A DNA stretch of 64,000 bases, from IMG/VR virus record IMGVR_UViG_3300032331_002826, positions 1-64,000 of that record; one strand, 5' to 3'. The position numbers and the translations under genes were made by a program. The notes beneath the pieces were generated by a model. The model was not told the origin of the DNA and searched no databases. It saw only the letters and a list, made by a program, of their open reading frames with translations. The stretch comes from a virus. Every line of letters begins with the position of its first letter. Position 1 is the stretch's first letter. Positions 59,181 to 63,360 of this stretch are shown piece after piece.

Positions 59181-59571
59181 TGGTGGACGTGGCGGGATTC
59201 GAACCCGCGTCTTCAAAAATATATTCTACATCAGACTACACGCTTATGAATTTTTTGACCGCACAACAACCATAATCTAAAATCCCAAACTTATGATTGT
59301 TTATGTTTGTAAGTTTCAACAACATATCCAAACTATATGTCATCAAGCCTGATAGAGTACACCCAACACAATTATCAGACATCGTTGTATTGGATGTGCA
59401 GCAACTTAAGCTGCGAGTAGTGCAACGTCTTCTCTCTTAGAAGTGAAGTCGTAGCTGATTACTTTGCTTTTCTTAGCATTTATTTTTTGAACAGATGATT
59501 AAAGAGGCCGACCGTTCATCCTCTGCGTGCCTAACATGAACTAATCTTTGAATCGAGACCAGTACACGCCC
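59181..59571 (-). ncRNA. ssrA: tmRNA (ssrA), one-piece, 391 nt
   Basis: The 5' end GGGCGTG (59565-59571) pairs with CACGTCC (59185-59191), followed by A and an encoded CCA. The pair G3-U70 is the alanine identity signal expected in tmRNA. The 5' part reads GTACTGGTCTCGA, like the usual CTGG-TTCGA start, and the 3' part has a full T arm (GCGGG TTCGAAT CCCGC). A tag reading frame of 23 codons runs from about 59477 to 59409, begins AKKSKV, ends ALLAA and is followed by TAA at 59406-59408. The LAA end is a protease-targeting signal. It rescues stalled ribosomes. The exact resume codon (GCT) is inferred. Confidence 0.93.
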
Positions 59572-61684: not shown

Positions 61685-61760
61685 TGGTCGGAGTGGAGAA
61701 TTTCGCAATCTCAACCTCCTGTCTCCAAAACAGGCCGTCTACTTTTGACATTACACTCCG
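61685..61760 (-). tRNA. tRNA-Pro (UGG), divergent copy with A18/G55
   Basis: The acceptor CGGAGTG/CACTCCG, C1-G72 and A73 are proline hallmarks and are identical to the canonical tRNA-Pro at 62816-62893; CCA encoded. The anticodon loop is TTTGGAG: UGG anticodon but A37 instead of G37. The D loop AAAAGTA lacks GG (A18 G19), and the T loop is TGCGAAA (G55). The T stem has one T-T mismatch. It may be a functional variant or a decaying copy. Confidence 0.75.
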
Positions 61761-61768
61761 ATAAAAAT

Positions 61769-62364: not shown

Positions 62365-62451
62365 TGGTGGGTGTAGAGGGACTTGCACCCCCATGCCTTT
62401 CGGCAGCTCGTTTTAAGTGAGCCGTGTATACTAATTCCAAACCATACACCC
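62365..62451 (-). tRNA. tRNA-Leu (UAA), A18/G55 type
   Basis: Acceptor GGGTGTA/TACACCC, A73, CCA, 87 nt with a long variable arm (TGCC GAAA GGCA). The anticodon loop is CTTAAAA; stem GCTCA/CGAGC has A31-C39. The D loop reads GGAATTAGTATACAC, with AG where GG is expected. The T loop is TGCAAGT (G55). Confidence 0.9.
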
Positions 62452-62463
62452 GTTATCTAAACT

Positions 62464-62541
62464 TGGTAGCTACGACTGGATTCGAACCAGCACTATTCTA
62501 TTTTTGAGATAGACGACTCCTCCCAATTGGTCTACGTAGCC
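62464..62541 (-). tRNA. Short-variable-arm tRNA with leucine anticodon CAA
   Basis: Acceptor GGCTACG/CGTAGCT, nearly identical to the acceptor of elongator tRNA-Met as I know it (GGCTACG/CGTAGCC), A73, CCA. The anticodon loop is CTCAAAA with a perfect TCTAT/ATAGA stem. The variable region is 5 bases (ATAGT), so this is a class I body, unlike normal leucine tRNAs. D loop GG and T loop TTCGAAT are canonical. Amino acid identity is uncertain. Confidence 0.85.
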
Positions 62542-62551
62542 ATTAAAAATT

Positions 62552-62635
62552 TGGTCGGCATGATAGGACTTGCACCTACACCCCTTTCGGGACGAGCTTC
62601 TAAGACTCGCATGGCTTCTATTACATCACATGCCG
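62552..62635 (-). tRNA. tRNA-Leu (UAG), A18/G55 type
   Basis: Acceptor CGGCATG/CATGCCG, A73, CCA, long variable arm (TCCC GAAA GGGG). The anticodon loop is CTTAGAA. The D loop TAATAGAAGC has AG instead of GG, and the T loop is TGCAAGT (G55), as in tRNA-Leu(UAA) and the divergent tRNA-Pro. Confidence 0.9.
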
Positions 62636-62638
62636 ATT

Positions 62639-62716
62639 TGGTGGCGACGACAGGATTCGAACCTGCACTACCGGAGTTCTCAACCCCGTGACTCCTTCCA
62701 GTTGGTCTACGTCACC
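62639..62716 (-). tRNA. Short-variable-arm tRNA with leucine anticodon GAG
   Basis: Acceptor GGTGACG/CGTCGCC, A73, CCA, 78 nt. The anticodon loop is TTGAGAA in the stem CGGGG/CTCCG. The variable region is 5 bases (GTAGT), a class I body. The D arm TAGACCAACTGGAAGGAGTC is nearly the same as in the CAA tRNA, so the two share a common origin. T loop TTCGAAT. Confidence 0.85.
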
Positions 62717-63100: not shown

Positions 63101-63176
63101 TGGTACGTGGGGAGGGACTCGAACCCCCGATAGGCACGGTGTAAACGTGCTACTTTGGCCACTAAGCTACCCACGC
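63101..63176 (-). tRNA. tRNA-Val (UAC)
   Basis: Acceptor GCGTGGG/CCCACGT (G1-U72 wobble), A73, CCA. The anticodon loop is TTTACAC in the stem GCACG/CGTGC. D loop GG, T loop TTCGAGT. Confidence 0.94.
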
Positions 63177-63193: not shown

Positions 63194-63221
63194 ATACTAA
63201 CACCAAATTTCAAATTGTCAA
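63194..63221 (-). promoter_or_regulatory. Sigma-70-type promoter at the head of the tRNA cluster
   Basis: Minus strand: TTGACA (63216-63221), 16-base spacer, TAGTAT (63194-63199), about 18 bases before tRNA-Val. It follows directly on the terminator at 63235-63267. Confidence 0.7.
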
Positions 63222-63234
63222 GGAACTATGAAAA

Positions 63235-63267
63235 AGAAAAAACCGTTGGTTTTTAGACCAACGGTTT
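63235..63267 (-). terminator. Intrinsic terminator downstream of fcl
   Basis: The stem AACCGTTGGT / ACCAACGGTT (63257-63266 with 63241-63250) is followed on the minus strand by TTTTTTCTTTTTC. Confidence 0.9.
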
Positions 63268-63360
63268 TGAAACTTACCTTCAACCGTCGATCCGTCTAGC
63301 CGAGGCTAGGTTGTGGGGCAGCACTTAGAAGTGCTGAGACCAAACTGGATGACGACAACT
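63268..63360 (-). other. Structured 3' segment between fcl and its terminator
   Basis: Two perfect hairpins on the minus strand, CAGCACTT-CT-AAGTGCTG (63319-63336) and CTAGCC-TC-GGCTAG (63296-63309), precede the terminator hairpin. No ORF. It may be a 3'-UTR-derived small RNA; unassigned. Confidence 0.45.

Follow-up and report, generated by a model that had tools for sequence, protein, structure and literature searches.

The DNA analysed here (the window) comprises bases 1-64000 of an IMG/VR virus record of 74,203 bases. Its major head protein and terminase match the PHROGs head and terminase families, and the virus is therefore a tailed phage. A minus-strand tRNA cluster starts near 59 kb and extends to the end of the record, with 31 tRNAs and one tmRNA called by ARAGORN in the last 15.2 kb. 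Two members of this cluster combine leucine anticodons with class I bodies: a tRNA-Leu(CAA) at 62464-62541 (minus strand), predicted to read UUG, and a tRNA-Leu(GAG) at 62639-62716 (minus strand), predicted to read CUC and CUU. Each is 78 nt long including an encoded CCA and was recognised by both ARAGORN and Rfam (RF00005; 54.0 bits for the CAA gene and 49.0 bits for the GAG gene, cut-off 29). Between them, no more than 10 bases from either, ARAGORN placed a class II tRNA-Leu(UAG) (62552-62635, minus strand), and a class II tRNA-Leu(UAA) was called at 62365-62451 on the same strand; both have variable regions of 13 nt.

The run opens with tRNA-Val (63101-63176), separated by a gap of 207 bases from the first of two tRNA-Pro genes, after which come Leu(GAG), Leu(UAG), Leu(CAA) and Leu(UAA). 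A promoter-like site (TTGACA-16-TAGTAT with TG before the second hexamer; 63194-63221, minus strand) is found 17 nt upstream of tRNA-Val; it is a consensus match only, of a kind that commonly occurs by chance (6 in the stretch versus 2.9 ± 1.7 in shuffles). Just upstream of this site is a terminator-like hairpin (63239-63268, minus strand), such hairpins numbering two versus 1.7 ± 1.4 in shuffles. Elsewhere in the cluster, a tRNA-like stretch at 61685-61763 (minus strand), identified by eye, adjoins real tRNA genes; its loop is UGG, its D arm is unusual, and it received no ARAGORN call.

Both class I genes are free of the broken stems and loops of pseudogenes. Their variable regions are only 5 nt long, ATAGT in the CAA tRNA (62492-62496) and GTAGT in the GAG tRNA (62667-62671), with U48 as the last base in each; the variable arm of at least 10 nt that marks class II is absent (tRNA position numbers are counted from the ARAGORN stems). 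The anticodons lie at 62504-62506 (CAA) and 62679-62681 (GAG), and the D arms, GACCAATTGGGAGGAGTC at 62515-62532 and GACCAACTGGAAGGAGTC at 62690-62707, differ at 2 of 18 bases, all four features being on the minus strand. The D arm of the CAA tRNA has a 3-bp stem, a C13.A22 mismatch, A14 and A15, G18G19 and A20a. Equally, A14, A15, U48 and A73 are present in both tRNAs, as is the D-loop motif G18G19 N A20a, in the forms GGGA and GGAA. A first-pass annotation had described two class I tRNAs with these anticodons and 5-nt variable regions, nearly identical D arms, an anticodon loop CTCAAAA in the CAA tRNA and long-armed Leu(UAA) and Leu(UAG) neighbours, and all of this stands.

Relatives were sought with the D-arm pattern CGTAGACCAAYTGGNAGGAGTC, leaving the anticodon unspecified. 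This returned 19 matches in 19 viral contigs, all of them in tRNAs with leucine anticodons, and a slightly looser pattern returned 10 matches in nine genome contigs, nine of which are tRNA-Leu (the match at L054 is not a tRNA and was rejected). Altogether, 28 of the 29 matches fall in tRNAs, and every one of these 28 carries a leucine anticodon (CAA, CAG, GAG, TAG or TAA), covering both leucine codon boxes; none has CAU. Applied across all D-arm loci, the looser pattern gave 30 tRNAs (24 distinct), again all leucine. CAA tRNAs identical or almost identical to that of the window occur in eight other viral contigs (L033, L039 and L044-L049). The eight bacterial D-arm loci are tRNA arrays, from Gemmata, Gemmataceae, Myxococcales, Kofleriaceae and Terriglobia. 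We also built a model, R1, starting from 84 short leucine tRNAs, 44 of which have an 18-nt D arm, a 5-nt variable region and a 75-nt body; removing six near-duplicates and four sequences with other D arms left 34. In the eight bacterial genomes R1 made 20 matches at E <= 1e-13; all but one of these lie on the array contig, the remaining one on another contig.

In textbooks, the long variable arm is the mark of bacterial leucine tRNAs. For E. coli, the accessible portion of PMC9976931 gives the leucine identity set as A73, A15-U48, G18G19 and A20a; it reports that the sequence and folding of the long arm do not correlate with leucylation, that the arm is dispensable for E. coli LeuRS, and that variants lacking both the anticodon arm and the long arm remain active. 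Both window tRNAs keep this published set, established for E. coli LeuRS, together with A14. Among 68 distinct short leucine tRNAs from the first loci, a set mostly picked by its D arm, A15-U48 is present in 66, A73 in 68, A14 in 67, GGNA in 66 and an unpaired 13:22 in 66. The corresponding counts for 296 other class I tRNAs are 78, 180, 221, 119 and 62.

Fairer samples were drawn by other criteria, and the figures that follow for them hold among the matches listed. The first comprised 120 viral loci chosen by an Arg-type D arm, 114 of which gave tRNAs. Here, 18 of 52 distinct leucine tRNAs were short, 17 of them with A15-U48, 17 with A73 and 18 with GGNA; since A15-U48 was also found in 173 of 337 other class I tRNAs, this pair alone is weak and not leucine-specific. 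In a further 120 loci chosen by an Ile(UAU) pattern, 11 of 33 leucine tRNAs were short and all 11 had A15-U48 and A73. Pooling the two samples, 28 of 84 distinct leucine tRNAs were short (27 of the 28 with A15-U48 and A73), whereas all 42 serine and all 16 tyrosine tRNAs were long. The loci were chosen for holding tRNAs and are therefore no census of viruses. Of the 561 distinct class I tRNAs in these loci, among the matches listed, 16 have a six-base core (A14, A15, U48, G21, A22, A73), namely 15 leucine and one methionine; only 15 of the 28 short leucine tRNAs of the pooled loci had it. A wider collection held 996 distinct class I tRNAs, of which 100 had the core and 99 of these were leucine. 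This set omits L206-L245 and L258-L417 and takes in loci picked by D arm, R1 or UAA pattern, so 99% is an upper figure. A short Leu(TAG) at L101 lacked the signature and may not be a leucine tRNA.

Our preferred reading, which we consider highly probable on sequence grounds, is that the CAA and GAG genes are working leucine tRNAs of the short-armed (class I) form. They would be transcribed with the phage tRNA cluster and would fold into a normal cloverleaf with A73 and a leucine-type D arm (3-bp stem, C13.A22, A14, A15 facing U48, G18G19, A20a). The LeuRS of the bacterial host would read these D-arm features and A73, not the anticodon or a long arm, and would charge leucine; the charged tRNAs would then read UUG (CAA) and CUC and CUU (GAG). 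The form belongs to a wide family, spread over phages and tRNA arrays with five leucine anticodons. Transcription and use in infection we infer, as we do the charging by LeuRS, for which the identity determinants argue. The first-pass annotation had suggested leucine tRNAs recognised in an unusual way: their leucine nature is well supported, but unusual recognition is probably unnecessary, because the identity set is kept and E. coli LeuRS has no need of the arm (PMC9976931, in the portion seen).

Short-armed forms are also found in cultured phages, and GenBank carries them under the plain name tRNA-Leu. By BLAST, the CAA gene matched six Streptomyces phage records at 79%, a Myxococcales member of the family matched 32 phage records, and the L037 member matched 77, some of these matches being short, two annotated as tRNA-Gly and one as tRNA-Met. 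Arm length was read (with ARAGORN) only in the stretches that were fetched, and most of the BLAST-matched records are judged by the match alone. Among the fetched stretches, Streptomyces phage Yaboi has a short Leu(CAA) beside a class II GAG, and Microcystis phage Mwe-JY26 a short Leu(TAG) beside a class II GAG. Streptomyces phage Manuel has a short Leu(TAG) that is the sole tRNA-Leu annotated in a 3-kb stretch. Short forms were likewise read in Gordonia phage Sixama (TAG, TAA and CAA), Bacillus phage P59 (TAG and TAA) and Pseudomonas phages 254 (CAA and TAG) and Ep020 (TAG). An 89-nt Leu(GAG) call with C73 in Sixama (L063:1547) starts inside an annotated tRNA-Gln and was taken as spurious. 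The GAG tRNA had no BLAST match in phages and the CAA tRNA none in plasmids; the L037 member had one partial plasmid match, to a record of 1000 bases. As a separate observation, eight viral loci fetched by the Arg D arm (L081, L083, L085, L100, L128, L141, L162 and L168, among the matches listed) have only two tRNA calls each, one for a class I Leu(UAA) and the other for Arg(UCU).

The UAA member of the family is also found outside arrays. R1 (E <= 1e-14) matched 25 of 188 genomes of Myxococcota, the phylum of the Myxococcales genome G002. Twenty Myxococcota loci were read. In 17 of them the class I Leu(UAA) gene stands alone, with a length of 74-77 nt and a variable region of 5 nt; the other three are arrays. 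One genome, G094, is represented by a contig (C1) of 5,847,748 bases, essentially the whole 5.8-Mb genome. Of its 42 Rfam matches over the cut-off, the only UAA tRNA is class I, the Leu AAG, CAA, CAG and TAG tRNAs being class II. Under established decoding rules UUA can be read only by a UAA anticodon, and G094 uses UUA, in 73 of 2617 leucine codons of 69 ORFs picked mechanically within 100 kb, and at four codons in the longest ORF of its LeuRS locus. The class I Leu(UAA) would thus be the only possible reader of UUA in this genome. Computation over all 188 Myxococcota genomes gave the class II UAA pattern in 91, the class I pattern in 20 and both in none (hypergeometric P = 6e-7, ignoring phylogeny); the 77 with neither pattern are incomplete genomes or pattern misses.

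Similarly, among 149 Planctomycetota genomes a slightly looser class I UAA pattern was found in 14, the class II pattern in 79 and both in two, G399 (with the class I copy in an array) and G407. Of ten Planctomycetota loci read, nine have the gene by itself, and none of these nine is from a genome with the class II pattern. In Acidobacteriota, 2 of 149 genomes had a class I UAA tRNA, one lone and one in an array. In some members of Myxococcota and Planctomycetota, the UAA form appears to have taken the place of the long-armed gene. Each of the seven bacterial genomes checked encodes a single full-length LeuRS scoring above the family cut-off, whereas no LeuRS above it was found in the phage record, possibly a fragment. 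The first-pass annotation had also considered that such bodies might be ordinary leucine tRNAs of the host lineage. This holds in part: some Myxococcota and Planctomycetota genomes have the short Leu(UAA) as a chromosomal gene standing alone, but the CAA and GAG short forms read in bacterial loci lie within tRNA arrays.

Why phages should carry such tRNAs is a further matter. Losing the arm may be an adaptation by which leucine tRNAs escape nucleases, toxins or modification enzymes that grip long arms, a proposal that is compatible with our preferred reading and that we regard as possible but doubtful. The frequency of short leucine tRNAs in the pooled samples (28 of 84, with serine and tyrosine tRNAs always long, among the matches listed) agrees with it, and tRNAs of arrays have been proposed as anti-defence elements (PMC12803027, in the portion seen). 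However, the lone chromosomal Leu(UAA) genes indicate that the form persists outside arrays, and the leucine bias is explained by simple tolerance, since LeuRS needs no arm while SerRS does (PMC9976931 and PMC7609411, as far as the excerpts go). A wider conjecture, to which we give similarly little weight, is that armless tRNA-Leu is a repeatedly arising kind, selected in phages to hide from systems that disable long-armed tRNAs, spread by arrays and then turned into the essential UUA tRNA in more than one bacterial phylum.

Decay of the two genes, or tRNA-like genes unused in translation, would be a very improbable explanation. An ordinary class II Leu(CAA) is present on the same record past the window (L030:8112-8195), so that UUG is read twice; the redundancy of the CAA gene is a point against our preferred reading and in favour of decay, as is the presence in the array of the uncalled tRNA-like stretch noted above. 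Against this stand the encoded CCA, the intact loops and the recurrence of the CAA tRNA in eight other viral contigs, together with the conservation of the fold. In the 34 chosen relatives, 97.6% of stem cells are paired, and double-sided changes number 219, where shuffles give 64 ± 6.7 and slid controls 31-41; the stems are therefore under selection and the fold is not due to chance.

The first-pass annotation had pointed to a likeness between the CAA tRNA and elongator tRNA-Met. This holds for the acceptor stem, compared with what we take to be the E. coli elongator Met stem, but not for the body: over 61 positions, the best non-leucine cores for the CAA tRNA are Glu (41), Arg (40), Arg (40) and Gln (39). 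For the GAG tRNA they are Arg (45), followed by Met, Lys and Lys (41 each). A Met origin was rejected as the main reading, the likeness being confined to the acceptor stem and none of the 28 D-arm tRNAs having CAU.

The same annotation had raised the possibility that these tRNAs insert another amino acid at leucine codons. Leucine codons were counted in 28 long minus-strand ORFs of the 56 listed in the window, giving UUG 524, CUU 264, CUA 133, UUA 108, CUC 73 and CUG 66; the two tRNAs therefore address 74% of the 1168 leucine codons. Codon meaning was then read computationally from homologue alignments, 73 for the major head protein and 54 for the large terminase subunit (those above 80% identity dropped). 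The modal residue is leucine at 36 of 40 UUG sites and 9 of 10 CUC sites. Homologues often carry UUA, CUA or CUG there, and so the leucine reading is independent of UUG. At CUU it is leucine at 13 of 19 sites, and at four of the 19 a different residue reaches 90% conservation or more (two Ile, one Met, one Lys). For comparison, the modal residue is leucine at 5 of 9 CUG, 9 of 10 CUA and 4 of 4 UUA sites, and methionine at 17 of 28 AUG sites; CUG is likewise weak, so CUU does not stand out in this respect. The leucine meaning holds at UUG and CUC, CUU is weaker and is not counted as proof, and the test is compatible with low-level misreading. Recoding or mischarging, in which bodies of another identity such as Met place another residue at UUG, CUC and CUU, draws on the short variable region, the presumed likeness of the CAA acceptor stem to elongator Met and the four deviant CUU sites, but is unsupported and extremely unlikely given the leucine anticodons of all 28 D-arm relatives, Glu, Arg and Gln as nearest non-leucine cores of the CAA tRNA, leucine in relatives at UUG and CUC, and a family member as sole possible UUA reader in one bacterial genome.

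Compared with bacterial class II tRNA-Leu, the short forms share leucine anticodons, A73, A14, A15-U48, G18G19, A20a, a 3-bp D stem with a 13.22 mismatch and, mostly, G21 and A22, but they have a 5-nt variable region here as opposed to 11-20 nt there. They also differ at position 9, with A9 in 104 of 124 short forms and G9 in 80 of 81 long forms. The cores of the 104 A9-type tRNAs are closer to another class I tRNA in 66 cases and to class II Leu in 21, with 17 ties, in a comparison of unequal pools (81 class II Leu versus 870 other class I tRNAs); descent from tRNA-Leu is thus not established for the A9 type. For the 19 G9 cores, by contrast, the closest is class II Leu in 10 and another class I tRNA in five, with four ties. 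The contrast suggests more than one origin, or convergence. Six loci (L102, L111, L112, L428, L443 and L511) hold a second short leucine type with G9 and variable regions of 5-6 nt, and several members have class II-like leucine D arms, as though they had arisen by plain loss of the long arm.

Several known systems bear a partial resemblance. Mitochondrial tRNA-Leu(UUR) is likewise a leucine tRNA without a long arm, with its identity in A73 and A14, but it is organellar, has its own LeuRS and has an anticodon arm that is partly unfolded in the transcript (PMC9976931, in the portion seen), whereas the short forms here are encoded by bacteria and phages and have firm stems. In Mycobacterium mucogenicum, a tRNA cluster includes a tRNA-Leu(TAG) with a short variable loop, array-borne like the present tRNAs and with a normal long-loop isoacceptor in the genome; other tRNAs of that cluster are expressed, as seen by northern blot. 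In the accessible text of that paper (PMC6582537) it is a single remark without identity analysis, distribution or function, and we compare it by description. A human tRNA-Met derivative with the anticodon CAA also has no long arm and some Met likeness. It is seven nucleotides from a human tRNA-Met, and the anticodon change is confined to human, chimp and gorilla; unlike it, the phage tRNA has a leucine D arm and relatives with five leucine anticodons. The nev-tRNAs of nematodes share the mismatch between arm class and anticodon but in reverse, as long-armed bodies with class I anticodons that are charged with leucine (PMC4033280, in the portion seen).

The literature searched, which largely leaves out subscription journals, so that an earlier description is possible, mentions a short-loop tRNA-Leu of bacteria once, in passing (PMC6582537), and gave no account of the family, of its determinants or of a housekeeping role. 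The words 'phage' and 'tRNA array' do not occur in a review of non-canonical tRNAs (PMC7609411), and in the excerpts available PMC5733544 (on cyanobacterial tRNAs), PMC9569102, PMC5966550 and PMC10865867 contain nothing on short-armed tRNA-Leu. The surprise is that armless leucine tRNAs are common in the loci sampled and that one bacterial genome has such a tRNA as its only one with UAA. Such a form would be natural proof that bacterial LeuRS manages without the arm, and would explain conflicts between anticodon and body in phage annotation without recoding. With armless leucine tRNAs, the reasons for which phages retain unusual tRNAs could also be tested concretely, and translation engineering may gain small leucine tRNAs.

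Further unusual genes accompany the cluster. The tmRNA (59181-59571, minus strand) encodes a long tag peptide, AKKSKVISYDFTSKREDVALLAA, and the related contig L046 has AEENVVSYDFSYGEVAALAA. Past the window, an 87-nt tRNA with anticodon CAU, a long variable arm and A73 (L030:9002-9088, minus strand) joins a long-armed body to a Met/Ile2 anticodon. Near it, a tRNA-Ile(UAU) (L030:8897-8990, minus strand; 67896-67989 of the record) has a variable arm of 24 nt. Long-armed Ile(UAU) tRNAs also occur in phage loci L036, L043, L097, L102, L112 and L144, with a small stem of varying sequence and a loop close to CAGATTA. A search with AGATT fixed gave 26 long-armed and one short-armed UAU calls in 120 loci, among the matches listed; the pattern itself accounts for AGATT in these, but not for the stem or for the loop bases on either side. 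The loop is missing from one distinct Ile(UAU) call, at L527. The arm of the long-armed Ile(UAU) looks like a conserved recognition feature.
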